Of a stretch of DNA of 64,000 bases, positions 27,090 to 62,840 are shown piece after piece. The DNA is taken from NCBI RefSeq assembly GCF_020514095.1, contig NZ_VTKY01000001.1, positions 248,001 through 312,000 of the forward strand, read 5' to 3'. The position numbers and the translations under genes were made by a program. Origin of the DNA: Synechococcus sp. MU1643 (GTDB lineage: Bacteria > Cyanobacteriota > Cyanobacteriia > PCC-6307 > Cyanobiaceae). Under the pieces are notes generated by a model, which saw nothing but the letters and a program-made list of their open reading frames with translations, had not been told where the DNA came from and ran no database searches. Each line of letters begins with the position of its first letter. Within the stretch, counting starts at the first letter, position 1.

Positions 27090-27124
27090 ACGTTGATCAG
27101 GCGCGAAGGCCAGGCGCCGGTAGG

Positions 27125-27265
27125 GTGGAGTGCTGGTTTCAGCGGGGAACAGCCGCTGGAGGAAACGGGGAAAGAGCAGTGAAAATCTGCCGCTGTCCCG
27201 CAGCTGTGAAACGTCGGCTCTCCGCCAACGTCAGTCAGAACGCCCGCCAGATCAAACCGACGAGG
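27125..27265 (+). promoter_or_regulatory. Cobalamin riboswitch
   Basis: The leader shows the B12-box core: GGGGAAAGAGCAGTGAAAA, then CCGCTGTCCCGCAGCTGTGA, and after a variable stem GTCAGAACGCCCGCC, close to the class consensus. It sits directly before the hupE ATG. Known behaviour of this RNA class is to shut expression when adenosylcobalamin or another cobalamin binds. The exact ends were set by eye. Confidence 0.88.
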
Positions 27266-27984: not shown

Positions 27985-29550
27985 ATGACGCTTGTTCGGC
28001 AACTGTTGATGGCTCCCGCCGCCCTTTGCCTTCTGGCCACCGGCGCCGATGCCGCCGAGCTGAACATCGACGGCGTTTCTGATTACGCGGCCACTTCCAG
28101 TGGCAACAGCCTTAATCAGGTCACCAGCGTCACCCAATTCTCCGACGTTGACCCCACCGACTGGGCCCATCAGGCTCTGGCCAACCTGGTGGAGACCTAC
28201 GGCTGCGTCGCCGGCTACCCCAACGGCACCTTCCGTGGCAACTGGGCCATCACCCGCTATGAAGCGGCTGCCCTGCTGAACGCCTGCCTCGACCGGATCT
28301 CCGAAGTGACCGACGAGCTGCGTCGCCTGCTCAAAGAATTCGAAACCGAGCTGGCCATCCTCAATGGTCGCGTTGACGGCCTCGAGGCCCGCGTTGGCGA
28401 ACTGGAAGCAACCCAGTTCTCCACCACCACCAAACTCAAGGGCCAAGCCACCTGGGTGTTCGGAGCCAGCCGCTTCAAGGGCTCCGCATCCCGGTTGCGT
28501 TCGGAGAGCAATGAAGCGTTGGGCGGCACCACGTTCAATTACGACCTTCAGCTTGGGTTGGAGACCTCCTTCACCGGCAAGGATCAATTGACCACGGTGT
28601 TGCGTGGCGGCAACTTCGACGGAGACGGAAACGTCTTCGGCAGTGGAGGGCCGTCAGGTCTGGCCACACTGGAAATTGCGTTTCAGGCGGGTTATCGCCC
28701 CAATCTGGTGGCGATCGACAAACTCTTCTATTCCTTCCCGTTGGGGGATGAGATCACCATCACCACCGGCCCGATTGTTGGCCAGGAAGACATGCTCGCG
28801 ATCTGGCCGAGCGTCTATCCCAGTGATCCGATTCTCGATGTACTCACGGTGAATGGAGCTCCGGGGGCCTACAACAAAAACAAAGGTGCGGGCTTGGGCA
28901 TCAGCTGGGCCTCGGAAAGCGGAGCCAGCGCGTCAGCTAACTATGTGGCGGCCAATGGTGCATCAAGCGACACCCGTTCCGGTGGTTTCGCCACCGACGA
29001 GGCGGGGGGCACCGGCACGCTGCAGCTGGGTTGGGAGGGTGACAACTGGGGCGTTGCTGCCCTCTATTCCAAGGTTCAGAACGGTCAAGACCTGATCGTG
29101 TATGCCTCGCCCTTCGTCAGGGATCGCTTCAGTGCTCGGGCCTTGACCAACGCCTATGCCCTGGGTGGTTTCTGGCAGCCATTGGAGAGCGGCTGGCTTC
29201 CTTCTCTATCGCTCGGTTGGGGCATCAATCAATCCGACACCCAGCGCAAGGGCCAGGTGAGCACCAGTCAGTCCTGGAGGGCTGGGCTGGAGTGGAACGA
29301 TGTGTTGATGGCGGGGAACAACGCCGGAATGGCTGTGGGCCAGCCTGTTTTTGCGACCGATATGCGAGGAGGTGACACCCCTGCTGATGGTCAGTACATC
29401 TGGGAGTGGTGGTACCAGTTCCAAGTGACCGACAACATCAGCGTCACCCCGGCGCTGTTCTATCTGTCGCGACCCATGGGTGAGCTCACACCGGACGGTT
29501 CAAGCTTCCAGCAACTTGGCGGCCTGATCAAGACGACATTTATGTTCTGA
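27985..29550 (+). CDS. SLH-containing OprB-like porin
   Basis: A signal peptide (ending ADA, about residue 24) precedes an SLH domain (VTQFSDVDPTDWAHQALANL to ITRYEAAALLNACL), a coiled-coil (VTDELRRLLKEFETELAIL to GELEATQF), and a beta-barrel of OprB type ending in Phe. This is the layout of cyanobacterial SomA/SomB porins. The first 150 residues are nearly the same as in the porin at 42.8-44.3 kb, while the barrels differ. It lies 78 bp after hupE and may share the B12-controlled transcript. Confidence 0.88.
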   Translation: MTLVRQLLMAPAALCLLATGADAAELNIDGVSDYAATSSGNSLNQVTSVTQFSDVDPTDWAHQALANLVETYGCVAGYPNGTFRGNWAITRYEAAALLNACLDRISEVTDELRRLLKEFETELAILNGRVDGLEARVGELEATQFSTTTKLKGQATWVFGASRFKGSASRLRSESNEALGGTTFNYDLQLGLETSFTGKDQLTTVLRGGNFDGDGNVFGSGGPSGLATLEIAFQAGYRPNLVAIDKLFYSFPLGDEITITTGPIVGQEDMLAIWPSVYPSDPILDVLTVNGAPGAYNKNKGAGLGISWASESGASASANYVAANGASSDTRSGGFATDEAGGTGTLQLGWEGDNWGVAALYSKVQNGQDLIVYASPFVRDRFSARALTNAYALGGFWQPLESGWLPSLSLGWGINQSDTQRKGQVSTSQSWRAGLEWNDVLMAGNNAGMAVGQPVFATDMRGGDTPADGQYIWEWWYQFQVTDNISVTPALFYLSRPMGELTPDGSSFQQLGGLIKTTFMF

Positions 29551-29734: not shown

Positions 29735-30772
29735 TCAGGCACTGACCTTGGAATTTCCCATGTTGTCAAGCGCTTCGGAAACGCGCTTGAAGTTAAATCC
29801 CATGCCGCGCAAGGCATGCCAAAAATGACCTTGCAGGAAAAAGAATGCAAGGTAGAAATGCGTATTGGCCAGCCAAGCCCGGGCTGAGTGGGCACCACCC
29901 TCAAGAGCAGTTGCGTCGCTGAAGTAGGGAGAGAAAGCGAAATTCAATTTCAATGGATCTCCATACAACTCAACGGGATAAATTGTTGTGTTTTGAGCAC
30001 ACCAAATGGCTGTCACAAATCCCATTAGAGCTACACCTGCAAGCGAGTAAGACAAGATCGACTCGCCGTTGTAGATCAAGACCTTTTTGAAAGGACCGAA
30101 AGGACTGGAGATGATATGCCAAACACCACCAATCGTGAGAATGAAGGCTAAAACAGCATGACCACCCATCACGTCTTCAAGACTACTGATGGAGAGAAAA
30201 TTAGACTGATAACCCCACACCATCCCGAGGTCAATGTTTGGTTCAACCCGTCGAACAGCTCCGATGGCGCTGTCGTAAATTCCATGGCGCTTTGCCCATT
30301 CAACGAAGGCAATGACTCCCAGGCCGAGAAAAATCAGATGATGACCCAAGATGAAAGTGAGCTTTTTTCCATCACTCCATTCAAAATGAAACTTTTGCGC
30401 GCGCCCTTCAGCCTCGGAAAGGTCCTTAGGCGCTCGAAGCGTATGCCAGATTCCAGCTGCTCCAAGTACAGCAGATGAAACCAGATGGAATGCTGCGATC
30501 GCGATAAGGGGTTCTTGGTCAATGATTACTCCACCTTCTCCTACGCCGAAGCCAAGGCCGGCGAGGTGTGGAATCAAAATCAGCCCTTGTTCTCCCATTG
30601 GCATTGTTCCGTCATAACGGGCCAACTCAAACAAAGTGAATGCACCTGCCCAAAACATGATTAAACCTGCATGGGCAGCGTGAGCTGCAATGAAAGAACC
30701 GCTGCGCTTCGCGACTCCTGCATTTCCAGCCCACCAGTCATAACTGACTGACGAACTTCCGTAAGACTGCAT
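29735..30772 (-). CDS. isiA: Iron-stress chlorophyll-binding protein IsiA (CP43')
   Basis: The 345-residue protein matches IsiA/Pcb-type six-helix antennas along its length: SYDWWAGNAG at the N-terminus, AHAGLIMFWAGAFTLFELARYD, GHHLIFLGLG, SSLEDVMGGH, SSPFGPFKKVLIYNGE, CAQNTTIYPVELYG and HFWHALRGMGF. Chlorophyll-ligating His residues are conserved in these blocks. IsiA forms antenna rings around PSI when iron is short. The ATG at 30772 is chosen over the longer frame to 30793. Flavodoxin is not directly adjacent as in many genomes but 5.7 kb away. Confidence 0.95.
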   Translation of the reverse strand: MQSYGSSSVSYDWWAGNAGVAKRSGSFIAAHAAHAGLIMFWAGAFTLFELARYDGTMPMGEQGLILIPHLAGLGFGVGEGGVIIDQEPLIAIAAFHLVSSAVLGAAGIWHTLRAPKDLSEAEGRAQKFHFEWSDGKKLTFILGHHLIFLGLGVIAFVEWAKRHGIYDSAIGAVRRVEPNIDLGMVWGYQSNFLSISSLEDVMGGHAVLAFILTIGGVWHIISSPFGPFKKVLIYNGESILSYSLAGVALMGFVTAIWCAQNTTIYPVELYGDPLKLNFAFSPYFSDATALEGGAHSARAWLANTHFYLAFFFLQGHFWHALRGMGFNFKRVSEALDNMGNSKVSA

Positions 30773-31145
30773 TTTCAGAAAGATGCGACACAAGAAACAT
30801 AATGAGTGCTCTCTGTCGAATAAATCTGCTTTTACATAGCTTTGCAGCCGTAAATCATATTTAACTTGTCAAGGAGTCATTTGATTGCAACGTTTTTTGT
30901 TTAATCCTGTGAGTTATCGATTGGGATCATTTGATTCTCTGGTTTGAATTCTTTGAGCTGCCTAATGAAAAATTATTTGCTTTGGTAAGAATATCAATTT
31001 GGTACTTGATTGCAGCCAATTGATGGCAGATGTCGTATCAAATATTCCCACCACACTAATTTAGTGCCAACTGGATTACGTATGAGTATGCATGATTTGC
31101 CAAACCACGTTTCAGTCATACATGGCTTGTTCTCGCCAAATCTAT
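30773..31145 (-). promoter_or_regulatory. isiA upstream region
   Basis: About 370 bp of AT-rich noncoding sequence precedes isiA. No convincing Fur box was found close to the start; a weak match (TGAGAATTATC) lies farther up at 31219-31229 inside an inverted repeat. Confidence 0.4.
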
Positions 31146-32028: not shown

Positions 32029-32278
32029 GAGATTGGTGATTGAAATACTTACTTTGCTTTCAGCGAAGCTGGGTTTTTGTTGCCACCTTTTCTTTTTTAG
32101 GAGTTGATGGCATGGCTTTGGCTGCTACTTCTTGATCTTAAAGTTTGCTCGCCTCCAGTCATTTTTCGCCAAATATTTTGTAGAGATGTAGAGCCAAGCT
32201 GTTTGTTGATGGAATAGATGTAATTCCACTTGCAGAAGTTTTGAATCCTGATAAGGACATGGAGAAACTGAAATAATC

Positions 32279-32479
32279 TCAAAAATAAATGTTTAATTTA
32301 TGATCATGTGTTTCTGTTGACCTCAATACACGTTGGCGCTCAATGACATTTTGAACTGTGGTCCGATGGGCTTCTGCAATTGCATCAACAAGACCTATCG
32401 GCCATTCCGTTCCGCAGCGCATTTGCGCTTCTAATACCGATGCGTCAAGTTTTGACAACCGGCTTGTTTTTCGAGACAT
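32279..32479 (-). CDS. Small hypothetical protein
   Basis: The 66-residue product (MSRKTSRLSKLDASVLEAQ) is basic with a helical centre (EWPIGLVDAIAEAHRTTVQNVIERQR) that could be a helix-turn-helix fragment. No family recognised. Confidence 0.4.
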   Translation of the reverse strand: MSRKTSRLSKLDASVLEAQMRCGTEWPIGLVDAIAEAHRTTVQNVIERQRVLRSTETHDHKLNIYF

Positions 32480-32560
32480 TGTGTTGATGGTGAGAAGTAG
32501 AAAGCATCAACGCCAGTTATTGATGGGCAAAGATAAGACCAATCAATTGTCCTGGTTTGG

Positions 32561-32641
32561 TTAAATCGCCACTCTGGCTCTTGAACCTGGAGGGAAGAAG
32601 AGCCAGATAACGCCCAATGCAACTGACATCGTCAGATTCAT
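32561..32641 (-). pseudogene. C-terminal piece of a small membrane protein
   Basis: In this frame the sequence reads coding-like from about 32710 (RENYIGQFTPAGAVQTMNLT) to the stop at 32561, with a short hydrophobic helix (VALGVIWLFF). The only in-frame ATG (32641) leaves 26 residues. A one-base shift would join it to an ATG near 32715, so it may be a decayed gene. Confidence 0.3.
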
Positions 32642-32940
32642 TGTTTGAACAGCTCCGGCTGGAGTGAACTGCCCAATATAATTTTCGCGTTGCGAATAAG
32701 TCCGTGTCTTTCACATGCCGCAGTACCACGTTTTAATTGATGCACTCCCGTGTAGTGATGCCAAATTAGTTTTCTGGAATTTTACGCTTCATGAGCAGCC
32801 TATTACTCTCCGCAAGCCTTTGGTTTTTTTGTTGCCATTGATGTCTTGGATGAATATTGTTATGTTCAACCCTCACTGTGTACATATAGAATGCTTATAG
32901 CCGTATTTATCAGTTTCAAAAAAATCAATGTTGATTAATG

Positions 32941-33162
32941 TTATTCGTTCTTTACTTCTTTGCTGCCTTGTTCTTTCGCTTTGAGTGTGTGATTCTCAAG
33001 TCGCTCTATTACGAGTTGCCTAAAATCGCAATAATCAATATCTTCCGTCTTTTTGTCGCGCATGATTTCCTGCGCCTCCCTCATTAAATACTCGTAAGTA
33101 GCTGCATCACTTGTTCTATTAGCGAGATCAATAATGTGTGCGAATGCTTCGATGTTGGTCAA
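32941..33162 (-). CDS. Small hypothetical protein
   Basis: The 73-residue charged helical protein (MTNIEAFAHIIDLANRTSD) has no recognised domain. Codon use and charge pattern look coding, but support is only from the reading frame. Confidence 0.45.
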   Translation of the reverse strand: MTNIEAFAHIIDLANRTSDAATYEYLMREAQEIMRDKKTEDIDYCDFRQLVIERLENHTLKAKEQGSKEVKNE

Positions 33163-33540
33163 GATCTGATTGCTGATTCTTGAAGTATAGATTCTGCCAG
33201 ACTAAGCTCTGTTATAAATTCTACCAATCGATGGTTGCATTGATCGATTTGCATTTATTAGTAATGCTTCAGTAATCCGTATCAGTCTTTGAGCCCTATC
33301 TGGCAGTCAGCTATTCGTGTTAATGAATTAGACTCGTTTGTCAAGAGATGATTATCTTTATTTGGTAAAAGTATTGGATCTCTTGATTCCAATATGAACA
33401 GGGCTTGATTGATGATTCTGGTATTTCTAATGATCCTTTTTTCTTTGTCACCTATATTATTTCGCGATGAAGAAATATCCTGTTGAGTTAAGGGCAGAAT
33501 TTCATCAATTCGAGCCTTTCTGGATTGTTTCTTCGGTTTT

Positions 33541-33678
33541 TTGTTGTTGTATAGCGGGAGACCCCAGGTCTGCGTTTTCAGCAGCGGTCGCTGTTCTGCA
33601 TTCGGTGCATTCGAGTGTGACAACGACGCGTACGCCTTTGCTTTTGGCCATAATAATTCAATGCAATTCTGGGAATAA
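33541..33678 (+). CDS. Possible small Cys-containing protein with TTG start
   Basis: The frame encodes GRPQVCVFSSGRCSAFGAF and ends MQFWE, with three Cys in 45 residues. No ATG is present; three TTG codons in a row start at 33541. It ends 10 bp before the first hairpin of the repeat array. Weakly supported. Confidence 0.25.
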   Translation: MLLYSGRPQVCVFSSGRCSAFGAFECDNDAYAFAFGHNNSMQFWE

Positions 33679-33682
33679 GTAA

Positions 33683-33760
33683 CTGGACTGACTCCTCTAG
33701 TTGAGCAGAGGAGTCAGTTGTAACCCCAGCGCGATGACCCGGATAAGCCATCGGATGAAG
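33683..33760 (+). repeat. Family 1 hairpin element, copy A
   Basis: A perfect 11-bp hairpin (CTGACTCCTCT at 33688-33698 with AGAGGAGTCAG at 33707-33717) is followed, 9 nt later, by CAGCG and a second small stem CGATG/CATCG. Compared with copies C and D, the second stem keeps pairing through a compensating change. Likely a small RNA or RNA-based element. Confidence 0.6.
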
Positions 33761-33864
33761 GTGCCTCGCAGGAACCCCTCCATTTCATTCTGACTGATTT
33801 TCTCAGAGCGCGAGTACAAACCATCTATCCTCAGCCATCAAATGAATCGATGATTGGTTTTCTT

Positions 33865-34060
33865 CTCCTCTGTGCCCTTGGTCTCTCGCCCTGTCAAGTC
33901 ATTTGAGAGGAGTCAGTGTTGTGACCAGCGTGAAATGGCTCTGGATAAAATCCTTTAAGCAGATGTTACGAGTGAATTTCACTGAGTAGTTTCAATCCAT
34001 TTCATGGGTCACTCCAGATAATGTCAGTGCCTGCGTCAAATCAGATTTGGCAATTTTTTT
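33865..34060 (+). repeat. Family 1 hairpin element, copy B
   Basis: CTCCTCT (33865-33871) can pair with AGAGGAG (33906-33912); then GAGTCAG, 9 nt, CAGCG as in the other copies. A weak stem CAAAT/ATTTG with seven T ends at 34060 and could terminate the unit. This is the most diverged copy. Confidence 0.45.
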
Positions 34061-34071
34061 GTATTAAAGTT

Positions 34072-34180
34072 ACGCTGATATGACTCCCCGCATCTTCAGA
34101 AGGGAGTCAGTGGTGTTATCAGCGCCCAATGGTGATTGCCCCCACCATTGGTTGGAGGTTTCCTGCGAAGGAAACATTAA
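34072..34180 (+). repeat. Family 1 hairpin element, copy C
   Basis: ACGCTGA precedes a TGACTCCC/GGGAGTCA stem (34081-34088 with 34102-34109), then CAGCGCCCAAT, and a stem CCAATGGT/ACCATTGG. Two overlapping short frames are open here: one from ATG 34080 (MTPRIFRRESVV...) and one from ATG 34129 (MVIAPTIGWR...). The latter shares A-x-TIGWR with copy D. Confidence 0.55.
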
Positions 34181-34267
34181 TCAATATGGGCTGGAATAAG
34201 GATTCAGCTGCTCCAGATGATGCAGATCATCGAATCAAATGAGCCTTTGTAAAGTTGTTGGGTTAAA

Positions 34268-34388
34268 ACGCTGAACTGACTCCTTCGGTTGAGGAGAGGA
34301 GTCAGCTGACACTCAGCGCCCAATGCTCACTGCAGGAACCATTGGATGGAGGATTCGATGCTCCATGGGAAGCTTCTCCCTGTTTTTT
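34268..34388 (+). ncRNA. Family 1 hairpin element, copy D (best-formed)
   Basis: ACGCTGAACTGACTCC begins the unit, with a CTGACTCCT/AGGAGTCAG stem, CAGCGCCCAAT at 34314-34324, a CCAATG/CATTGG stem and CCATTGGATGGAGG. It ends with GGGAAGCTTCTCCC plus six T (34367-34388), a plausible terminator, giving a unit of about 120 nt. A short frame from ATG 34323 (MLTAGTIGWR) is also open. Confidence 0.6.
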
Positions 34389-34423
34389 GGCTGAGTGCTG
34401 TGCTGATGTGCCGGTTGTGACTT

Positions 34424-34540
34424 ATGAGAGGTTGCAAGGTATCGGTGGGTGACCCCCCTTCGCACCAGACAGTTCTGGTTGCTGGACCAAGAGTTGATGT
34501 TCCGTCCTCCTGTCAAAATCCAGTAATAGACAGGGGTTAG
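34424..34540 (+). CDS. Possible 38-aa protein
   Basis: ATG at 34424 opens a 38-residue frame (MRGCKVSVGDPPSHQTVLVA) with no close ribosome-binding site. Coding nature is uncertain. Confidence 0.25.
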   Translation: MRGCKVSVGDPPSHQTVLVAGPRVDVPSSCQNPVIDRG

Positions 34541-34573
34541 TTGGTTGATGTGATAGATCCATGTGATGCTGAT

Positions 34574-34605
34574 ACACCTGGTTGCTTACGCAACTAGCCA
34601 GGTGT
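34574..34605. other. Strong two-part hairpin
   Basis: ACACCTGG pairs with CCAGGTGT, with an inner TTGC/GCAA stem. No long T run follows, so it is a structured leader or weak terminator. The rest of 34606-35022 holds no gene I can support; it contains the start of the Crp-type gene. Confidence 0.5.
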
Positions 34606-35022
34606 TTGTACCCGGTCGTGACGACAGACAGCATCTGCGTTATCTAGGTCTGCTTTTGTCTCTAATTACTTTTTTTGAGTTCTCTCCCGTTTGAGCATGA
34701 GGGTTGGCTGATTAACACCGTAGTTGTGTGCCTTGTGGTTATGACAAGGAAATACAGAGAAAACGCTCAATAAGAACACCTCAGCGTTGAAAGCGATCCA
34801 CTGGTCTCTCAGCGGTCGAGGTGTACTAGGCCTAGAGACATCAGGGCAATGCTTCGAATTCAGGGAGATGCGCAGCTGCTCCGTTCACTTCTTCTGTGTG
34901 CGGAGGGAGCCTCCTCGCAGCGTATTGAGAAAGAACTCCAGTTTAAGAGCCTTATTGAGAATGACTTGCAATATCGACAGGAAGTCTGTACTCTTGCGAG
35001 TAATTCTCATTCGCGATAGTTC

Positions 35023-35625
35023 GTGACGACGTCTGCCTACCGTTTCCTGCCGGAAGATCCAGCGGCACCTTTGTCGATGCCCAGGCTTCAGACCGTTCTG
35101 CTGGATCCTGCTGGTCGAGACCAGGCCACCGTTCTGGAAGTGTTGGAGGGTGTCTGCCGGGTGTATTGCCCTTGCGAGGAGACCGAGGGAATGACCTTGG
35201 CGTTTTTGCAGTCAGGCGACAGGCTTCGCACTGATCGCATGTGCAGTGACGGGGCCTGTGTTGAGGCACTCACGGCGCTCAAGTTTCGCCGTGATTCCGT
35301 CTCCACTGACGAATTCGGCATCGACGCAGTCAATGAGTGGACGTTACAGCTCTTGAGAGTCCGTCATCTGGGTCAGGCAGAACAACGGCTTCACGCTCTT
35401 TTGGCGCTATTGGTCAACCGGCTTGGACTTCGTTGCAGCGATGCTTATCAGCTTCCCTTCCGTCTAACCCATGATCGTTTTGGCGAGTTGATTGGTGCTA
35501 CCCGGGTGACCACTACCCGTCTTCTTTCGAAATGGCGTCAAGCCGATTTGATCGCCATGTCGTCTGGTGATGTCACGATGCGTATTGCACCTGACCTCAT
35601 CAACTCTTCACCTCTCCAATTCTGA
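35023..35625 (+). CDS. Crp/Fnr-family transcription regulator
   Basis: The 200-residue protein has a shortened, diverged cNMP-like N-terminal region, a helical dimerisation segment (VNEWTLQLLRVRHLGQAEQRLHALLALLVNRLG) and a C-terminal winged helix with recognition region RFGELIGATRVTTTRLLSKW. This is the Crp/Fnr fold common in marine picocyanobacterial islands. No iron-sulfur Cys cluster or cAMP-binding set was seen. Start is GTG. It is followed 5 bp later by a small gene. Confidence 0.82.
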   Translation: MTTSAYRFLPEDPAAPLSMPRLQTVLLDPAGRDQATVLEVLEGVCRVYCPCEETEGMTLAFLQSGDRLRTDRMCSDGACVEALTALKFRRDSVSTDEFGIDAVNEWTLQLLRVRHLGQAEQRLHALLALLVNRLGLRCSDAYQLPFRLTHDRFGELIGATRVTTTRLLSKWRQADLIAMSSGDVTMRIAPDLINSSPLQF

Positions 35626-58845: not shown

Positions 58846-58967
58846 GCTGCGACTTAACGATGTGGAGCCACGGAACCGCGAAGAGAAACTGGTCCTCCCC
58901 GAGCGATGCGAGTCCGTCTAATCATGTTCGCTCCTTCATATCGATTTGTGACTGATTCACTGGATTT

Positions 58968-59201
58968 CTACAGCTTTAAGATACGGAGGGGTTTCTCTAT
59001 CGATTGCTCTCGATGGGGAAACTCTTCTGCTAGCGCTAAGCTCGCTCTCCCCGTACTGCTCAGCACCACATCTGGCGTGCAGGCAACTGAGGGTCCAATG
59101 ATCAGGCCATTCAGCAGGCTTGCGGGGAACTTCTGAAGATGTTCTGATCCTCCAAAAATTTCGGTAGATCCAGATGATGGTTGCGATTGATACGGACTCA
59201 T
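58968..59201 (-). CDS. Possible 77-aa protein
   Basis: ATG 59201 opens MSPYQSQPSSGSTEIFGG and ends SIEKPLRILKL. Coding-like but unsupported by domain or ribosome-binding site; a frame at +1 (58957-59205) also stays open. The remainder of 58850-59420 shows only hairpins, such as GGACCCA/TGGGTCC near 59290-59320. Confidence 0.3.
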   Translation of the reverse strand: MSPYQSQPSSGSTEIFGGSEHLQKFPASLLNGLIIGPSVACTPDVVLSSTGRASLALAEEFPHREQSIEKPLRILKL

Positions 59202-61949: not shown

Positions 61950-62012
61950 ACAAAAAAGAGGGCGGCCCCTCAGCCATCCCTCTAGACGCATTCGGAGGCA
62001 CCACTGCCATTG
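61950..62012 (-). terminator. Family 3 terminator-associated module, copy 2
   Basis: GGCAGTGGTGCC, AATGCGTC, and a GAGGG-GGCTGAGGGGCC-CCCTC stem ending in a T run on the leftward strand. Ends the copy E transcript. Confidence 0.65.
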
Positions 62013-62095
62013 CCCCATTGGGTCGTCACTGAACCGATGGCCTCGGCGACGGTGCCGTTGGAGCGTCCATCACCTCCATCCAATGGAACCTGCAT
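61982..62095 (-). CDS. Possible 37-aa peptide inside family 1 copy E
   Basis: ATG 62095 opens MQVPLDGGDGRSNGTVAEAI, acidic, and ends SECV just before the terminator stem. Coding is possible, not proven. Confidence 0.35.
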   Translation of the reverse strand: MQVPLDGGDGRSNGTVAEAIGSVTTQWGNGSGASECV

Positions 62096-62160
62096 AACTA
62101 TTGGGCGCTGACAAGGAAGCTGGCTTCTCTCTGACCAGGGGTGAGTCAGTTCAGCGTGAT
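62015..62160 (-). repeat. Family 1 hairpin element, copy E
   Basis: On the minus strand it carries ACGCTGAACTGACTC (62143-62157), CAGCGCCCAAT (62100-62110) and CCATTGGATGGAGG (62073-62086), all identical to copy D and in the same order and spacing. Its first stem is CTGAC/GTCAG, shorter than in the others. Confidence 0.65.
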
Positions 62161-62245: not shown

Positions 62246-62332
62246 ATGACTCCTCTTGTGTTGCCCCTCGCTGGCCTGGTGCTGTTTTTGGTTCAAATTA
62301 TCTACGGGTCTCAAACGCAAAGCCAAGACTGA
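62246..62332 (+). CDS. Possible 28-aa membrane peptide
   Basis: ATG 62246 opens MTPLVLPLAGLVLFLVQIIY, a single helix. Tiny, no other support. Confidence 0.35.
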   Translation: MTPLVLPLAGLVLFLVQIIYGSQTQSQD

Positions 62333-62651
62333 GGACTCCATGAATCAGGCATCCACCGCGACGTTGCTTGGGCTCAAGGGATACTCCCCCTATTTAGTCT
62401 GAACCGCTCTCAACCCATAGCCGGGATGGTGGTGTCTTTGAACGTTCTGCGGCAACGGAATCTAAATCCAAGGGGCGCCAAGTCCACTGCACGCTCACAA
62501 CACCACTGACACCTCTGCCAGTGAAATGTCCTGGGAGTCAGCCCAGTGTTGTGGGAAGGGTGCTGAAAAGCATCAAGCATCTCTCGTGATTCGATTAGCA
62601 GTTGAAAGGAACGACGGCTTGAGCCACAACTGGTTTGTCGCAACAACTCAG

Positions 62652-62840
62652 ATGGGTTTCAGTACTGAGCAACGCAAAGCAGAAACCACGAGCTCCATTC
62701 GCATTGCAGCTGGACTCATTCTCGGGTTGAGTTGTTTCGCTGTGGTGTTGACCGGTGGGATCTTTGTTGGGCAGTCCATCGGTGAGGCGTTGAACACGCT
62801 CCAGACCATTGCTCCGGTTGAGGTTGACCCTCTTCGCTGA
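62652..62840 (+). CDS. Small membrane protein, 62 aa
   Basis: ATG 62652 opens MGFSTEQRKAETTSSIRI followed by one helix (AAGLILGLSCFAVVLTGGIFVG). No family. Confidence 0.55.
   Translation: MGFSTEQRKAETTSSIRIAAGLILGLSCFAVVLTGGIFVGQSIGEALNTLQTIAPVEVDPLR

Follow-up and report, generated by a model that had tools for sequence, protein, structure and literature searches.

A repeated element with a conserved RNA fold at iron- and metal-related loci of marine Synechococcus

Marine Synechococcus strains are major primary producers of the ocean, and in large regions iron and other metals limit them. In the window examined here, a stretch of 64,000 nt from Synechococcus sp. MU1643 (G000:C1:248001-312000), a row of hairpins lies on the same strand as, and upstream of, the iron-stress gene isiA. 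The question is what these repeated elements are: RNA, coding sequence or mobile DNA, and what relation they bear to the genes beside them. Genomes are given below as G numbers and fetched stretches as L numbers.

Extent and copies of the repeat unit

Four tandem hairpins in a common order, with a fifth copy near 62.1 kb, had been described in an earlier note made from the letters alone. All are present, with a spacing of 194-199 nt in the array. The core palindrome, CTGACTCCN{4,30}GGAGTCAG, was found at 7 places in the 2.07 Mb genome and a reversed control pattern at 0, and the recurrence is therefore not due to chance. A blastn search with a single unit returned 22 matches in the same genome at E values up to 10, 8 of them with E above 1. 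Iterated profile searches of the fetched loci yielded 99 distinct copies, each at least 130 nt long, of which approximately 80% of all pairs share 50-70% identity.

Alignment of the copies from this genome gave a unit of approximately 190 nt. The earlier proposal of an RNA of about 120 nt ending in a terminator after unit D had to be abandoned, because homology continues past that length and through the proposed terminator region, and a scan of 32200-35000 found no terminator there (two terminator-like sites lie elsewhere, and shuffles average 2.2). Promoter- and terminator-like sites in the window array occur at chance level; one of the three promoter-like sites in the array scan is on the minus strand, within unit C.

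The units of the window and the genes beside them are collected in Table 1. Copies A, C and D were recovered by the covariance model R1. Copy B, absent from the R1 matches, is a decayed unit seen with the sequence profile. The fifth copy was likewise recovered, and the earlier list was incomplete by two diverged units, S and F. Units C, D and E belong to the training set of R1. Unit A forms 23 of its 24 scored pairs, and orthologs of unit S were found in 8 other genomes.

Table 1. Repeat units and neighbouring genes in the window (positions counted from the first letter of the window)
Feature	Position	Strand	Basis or remark
Unit D (structured RNA element; copy D of the earlier note)	34267..34449	-	Covariance model R1, 124.0 bits, E 2.6e-36
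Unit C	34071..34264	-	R1, 122.9 bits, E 5.5e-36
Unit B, decayed, lacking one P2 arm	33905..34044	-	Sequence profile only, 30.5 bits
Unit A, 29 nt 5' of second L33 gene	33681..33867	-	R1, 55.6 bits, E 9.7e-16
Unit S, diverged	32565..32762	-	R1, 38.6 bits, E 1.3e-10
Unit E (fifth copy of the earlier note), sense strand +	61966..62158	+	R1, 110.7 bits, E 2.6e-32
Unit F, diverged	62352..62550	+	R1, 31.8 bits, E 1.4e-8
28-aa small membrane-protein gene (T2), 87 nt after unit E	62246..62332	+	tblastn to L040 T2 peptide, E 3e-7
62-aa small membrane-protein gene, 101 nt after unit F	62652..62840	+	Ortholog in L151
Second L33 gene (rpmG paralog), frameshifted	33458..33651	-	PF00471 in intact ortholog
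66-aa small gene (S66), start 85 nt after unit S	32279..32479	-	Nine loci including the window
isiA (CP43'), downstream, same strand as array	29735..30793	-	PF00421, 181.2 bits
CRP-type regulator bordering array	35023..35625	+	PF13545, PF00325; same place in L075, L077, L087, L088, L147

Pairing and sense strand

The supported helices are four: hairpins P4 (GGAGG/CCTCC type) and P3 (CCAATGG/CCATTGG type), and the closing stem P1 (CGCTGA/TCAGCG), which holds hairpin P2 (CTGACTCC/GGAGTCAG). The 5' domain (CTCATTTG, TCATC) is conserved without supported helices. Two candidate helices in this domain, P5 and P6 (CCATCGCC/GGCGATGG and CGGC/GCCG), were rejected, as only 242 of 384 and 79 of 176 cells, respectively, pair in 48 copies.

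The strand assumed in the earlier note proved to be the wrong one. On that strand, the non-Watson-Crick cells of 99 rows, stem ends included, comprised 165 A.C and 77 G.U, and because A.C on one strand is G.U on the reverse, the sense strand of the array is the minus strand of the window. RNAalifold applied to 58 copies gave -1.2 kcal/mol for the strand read earlier and -15.5 for its reverse. In the sense alignment of 48 copies, G.U cells numbered 43 and A.C cells 10. Counted on a tree, independent gains on the sense strand were 33 for G.U and 9 for A.C (p=0.00027), a test that presumes similar transition rates on both strands. In 60 columns outside the helices, G>A differences (149) and C>T differences (118) were too close for transition rates to explain the wobble bias. 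Together, the wobble asymmetry and the folding energies rule out the earlier strand as sense.

Pairing was assessed in an alignment of 58 copies (chosen from 85 listed, plus window copies D and E), from which ten, including badly aligned rows and near relatives, were omitted to leave 48. In the sense orientation, the four helices hold 26 pairs, and 95.0% of the 1248 cells were paired, against 32-47% in slid controls. Covariation was 0.107 versus 0.082, a value reached by 0 of 500 shuffles. Two-sided changes were seen in 7 pairs, with a shuffle average of 3.4 and with 9 and 8 in two slid controls. Further pair types were not above shuffles (126 of 500), and two of the five measures on this alignment failed to exceed every control.

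The same quantities were determined for 143 matches aligned with the covariance model, an alignment that leans toward the model by its construction and that includes lineages outside model building. Here, 93.8% of cells were paired (slid controls, 26-45%), two-sided changes occurred in 20 of 26 pairs (slid controls, at most 12), and covariation was 0.214 versus 0.126, again reached by 0 of 500 shuffles. The top three covarying column pairs were model pairs, and 8 model pairs fell within the top 45. The earlier note had taken a stem that changes sequence while keeping its pairing to point to RNA structure and had named covariation in further homologs as the test; the 48-copy and 143-match alignments both bear this out.

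Orthologous sets were fitted to the model in the same manner, and the following counts lean toward it accordingly. Orthologs of unit A in 8 genomes formed 22-24 of 22-25 scored pairs, with 4 compensated. The corresponding values were 19-22 of 22-23 with 2 compensated for unit S in 9 genomes, 25 of 26 with 8 compensated for the metallothionein units of 4 genomes, and 24-26 of 24-26 with 6 compensated for seven units of G012. Such near-complete pairing in copies preceding the same gene speaks for selection on individual copies. The above results strongly support the unit as a structured RNA read from the minus strand of the window, in which pairing is kept while the letters change.

Some units, such as those at L041 6762-6983 and L040 7348-7581, have an additional P1 strand or extra sequence inserted between P2 and P1. 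These mosaics suggest recombination inside the hairpin region.

Recurring loci and readings of the unit

The array, the second L33 gene, unit S and S66 lie on one strand in nine genomes (Locus 1), with L33 present in eight and not detected in the L153 version of the block. In seven of the nine, isiA follows; these are all seven of the stretches that reach that far, as L146 and L147 end before isiA, and those of L145 and L153 cut the gene. A CRP-type regulator and flavodoxin border the array in six genomes. At a second locus, seen in five genomes, units are found among flavodoxin, phycobilisome linker, ferredoxin and metallothionein genes, with no flavodoxin detected in the L076 version. The element is thus placed at recurring iron and metal loci, and the iron-stress location given in the earlier note holds as a statement of position. 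Array length varies among syntenic loci, with rows of seven model matches on the isiA side in L075 and L077 (T1 genes occupying some gaps) and five nearly contiguous matches in L147. Alignment breaks fall within units, and the two observations together fit recombination between copies.

The second L33 gene is an extra copy, as the carrier genomes also have another L33 gene. It is full length and free of stops in G001, G003, G005, G009, G014 and G029, and is broken or incomplete in G031 and in the window, where it is in two pieces. We note it as an accessory ribosomal protein gene at an iron-stress locus. Two other RNA matches were observed in this part of the window. A match to IsrR inside isiA, at 30208-30379 (+) with 53.4 bits (threshold 52), fits control of isiA by an antisense RNA in marine Synechococcus, and a cobalamin riboswitch at 27117-27265 (+), with 49.1 bits, lies upstream of a porin-type gene (27985-29550).

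Units were found 5' of the start codons of nine unrelated small-gene families in one relative orientation; a few entries listed as "same" in the survey of downstream genes reflect the P2 palindrome as it reads on the opposite strand. The gap from unit to start codon is near-constant within most families. It measures 11-15 nt for T1, 15-30 nt for the Y family, 25-31 nt for the second L33, 53-65 nt for DUF3104, 85 nt for T5 (40 after a decayed unit in L071), 85-86 nt at seven of nine S66 loci and about 95-96 at the other two, 87-89 nt for T2 (35 in L082), 87-103 nt for metallothionein in seven genomes, and 101 nt for the 62-aa gene. The T2 cluster comprises 6 loci. The L151 ortholog of the 62-aa gene also begins 101 nt after its unit, and identity between the two longer reading frames is 92%. 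Pfam identified DUF3104, L33 and metallothionein and returned no family for Y, T1, T2, S66, T5 or the 62-aa protein. For the T3 and T4 peptide queries, whose N-terminal ends mixed two reading frames, only the matching cores were used.

The best single reading, which we hold tentatively, is that the unit is a repeated, co-transcribed, cis-acting 5' leader RNA. It is preferred because the co-orientation with start codons and the short, near-constant gaps of L33, Y and T1, which leave little room for a promoter, need explaining. Units would share a transcript with the small gene downstream. The P1/P2 hairpin, whose end lies 11-31 nt ahead of the start codon in three families, would tune translation or stability, and extra tandem units would be duplicated leaders added or removed by recombination. 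Transcription, processing and regulation by the units, and a response to iron or zinc, are steps that we infer.

Several observations run against a leader. Many units precede another unit and not a gene, and the metallothionein gene of G012 is on the other strand at the 3' side of its unit. The neighbourhood tests used 131 of the 143 model matches (12 partial ones omitted), or 129 without duplicates. Compared with the control side, reading frames downstream in the sense direction showed no greater length (p=0.31, 83 units), and the codon-score bias was weak (15 versus 8 among 129 units).

Promoter-like motifs bear on the same issue. In some DUF3104 copies, a CTAATACAGnTGTACTAG-type motif lies between unit and ATG, and it is present in unit-less loci too, so that the unit there may lie upstream of the promoter. 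This motif looks like a dyad operator or promoter, perhaps of LexA-like type. It sits shortly before the start codon in L042 and L105-L110. The DUF3104 gene itself is multi-copy, its part of the query matching many places in several genomes. The metallothionein gaps could also be wide enough for a promoter. For metallothionein in WH8102, one study reports activation by Zur at the promoter (PMC9337993).

The metallothionein gene at L040:12521-12880 and its orthologs are convergent with the Y family. Y-family proteins mostly end in a cysteine-rich tail of CCE type, and a role as a metal-related partner of metallothionein is possible.

A family of trans-acting sRNAs, transcribed as long tandem precursors that are processed into single units whose 5' domain pairs with targets or holds a protein, ranks close behind the cis-leader reading, as a possible but less probable explanation. 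The long rows in L075, L077 and L147 and the large number of matches per genome would be expected of such a family, as would the conserved 5' domain that lacks supported helices and the units found upstream of promoter-like motifs. It is weakened by the chance-level promoter-like sites of the window array and by short gaps between many neighbouring units, with little room for separate promoters, and it leaves the repeated co-orientation with downstream start codons unexplained.

We consider it unlikely that the unit is a non-autonomous island DNA repeat, mobile or spread by recombination, with a single-stranded DNA fold recognised by a transposase or recombinase. Copies are dispersed in gene-poor, variable stretches, the changes in length of syntenic arrays and the breaks inside units are those expected from recombination between copies, and matches are present in some genomes of the genus with none detected in others. 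However, the unit ends share no terminal inverted repeat (flanks judged by eye), and the low identity of most copy pairs argues against a recent burst, a few close pairs excepted. Orthologous copies keep their pairing with some compensated changes (in the model-fitted alignments), and the wobble asymmetry fits RNA, though G.T forms in folded DNA too. A scan of 40 neighbouring reading frames found one serine recombinase (L081) and no transposase. In two empty-site queries for target-site duplication, the flanks met were themselves multi-copy. An integron attC array, which would be marked by GTTRRRY/RYYYAAC core sites and an integron integrase, was also considered as a possibility because the arrays look cassette-like.

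Slightly more doubtful is a new kind of regulatory RNA array, in which rows of up to seven copies of a single sensor-like RNA would be maintained at both loci, the number of units setting the strength or dose-response of the metal-stress genes as a rheostat that varies between ecotypes.

It is improbable that the unit is a 3' element, such as a terminator or an RNA-stability or processing hairpin after small genes. Stop codons do lie close upstream in the sense direction (T1, mostly 22-26 nt; T2, 29-39; DUF3104, 56-57), but the distances to downstream starts are as regular, no U-run follows P1/P2 in the flanks examined, and some units have a divergent gene next to their 5' end (L079, L073, L136). 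In L090 and L154, the stop codon of genes ending in WGSIDWID-x-YGQK coincides with the 5' end of the unit or falls just within it.

Short peptides of A-x-TIGWR type, which the earlier note had left as an explanation on account of open frames in some copies such as C and D, have practically no chance of being the encoded product and were ruled out: variation lacks three-base periodicity, one-base indels are common and indels are not multiples of three, and minimal stop counts are near those of shuffles (1.40 versus 1.24 on the strand read earlier, 0.97 versus 1.12 on the other). In a separate check of 94 units, those that follow plus-strand genes gave no consistent reading frame.

Known RNAs and distribution across genomes

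Among known systems, riboswitch-type 5' leaders, taken as a kind and not as a family, are also multi-helix RNAs just 5' of the start codons of unrelated genes, with structure more conserved than sequence. The units differ from them in forming rows of up to seven, in being dispersed in islands, and in that many have no gene downstream. We take the multicopy sRNA families Yfr2 and Qrr to resemble the unit in having several structured copies per genome, with a copy number that is presumably lower; no promoter or terminator was recognised in the scanned unit array. A resemblance to the REP/RAYT and IS200/IS605-derived repeats presumably lies in their being dispersed, palindromic and intergenic, whereas the unit has four helices in 190 nt with compensated changes and, as above, no transposase among the neighbouring frames.

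Two RNAs of these organisms invite closer comparison. Yfr103, the closest published RNA encountered, is described as a multi-copy ncRNA of marine picocyanobacteria with very high abundance and unknown function (PMC5069720). By that account, it shares with the unit several copies in marine Synechococcus and a conserved secondary structure. It differs in length (290-328 nt) and in copy number (seven paralogs in CC9605), and apparently in distribution, being reported from Prochlorococcus too. The unit may be distinct from it. Cyano-2 (RF01702) is likewise a structured RNA of approximately 200 nt from marine Synechococcus. It has a different consensus, and none of the units in the window or in the permissive scans matches it. 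One copy lies in the window at 58863-59060 (-) and another at G000:C1:504270-504470, about 86 nt from a pair of units, where a functional or positional link is possible. Identity of Cyano-2 with Yfr103 was considered and rejected, as the distribution does not fit (Cyano-2 matches in 3 of 81 family genomes).

The comparison with Rfam proposed in the earlier note returned, for the units, no family of Rfam 15 at gathering threshold in the window scan or in permissive scans of the array, L079 and L140 units, the permissive scans giving only chance-level matches to eukaryotic families. Among the papers listed by the literature searches, titles and abstract openings held no description of the element.

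The covariance search, also proposed there, gave 151 matches, fragments among them, distributed over 18 of 34 same-genus genomes, that of the window included. The most were found in G029 (28, five of them fragments), and the genome of the window has 21, three of them fragments. Counts per genome are lower bounds, as the initial search missed unit S of the window as well as copies in G016, G011 and G013 that were recovered in L166, L168 and L169. No convincing match was obtained outside the genus. A sample of 292 genomes of the phylum, in which 8 of those listed are of the same genus, held none beyond it, and 36 other genomes of the family gave weak matches in 7 (E 0.005-0.044) by a search that may lose weak matches. 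Phages and plasmids gave no blastn match to one unit, and IMG/VR gave none to one exact pattern. The sole non-cyanobacterial match in a pattern scan of contigs, in a beta-proteobacterial MAG (L100), looks like chance when the sequence is inspected.

A structured RNA is present at isiA, flavodoxin, ferredoxin, metallothionein and second-L33 loci, with the copy number of a genome reaching about two dozen. If regulatory, it would constitute a sizeable unrecognised layer of gene control, and otherwise a structure-constrained repeat of a new class. Copy number varies from genome to genome, and for this reason either answer can be tested in existing strains. Carriers named by one pattern scan are Synechococcus sp. 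MU1642, AG-670-A05, AG-670-B23 and one MAG.
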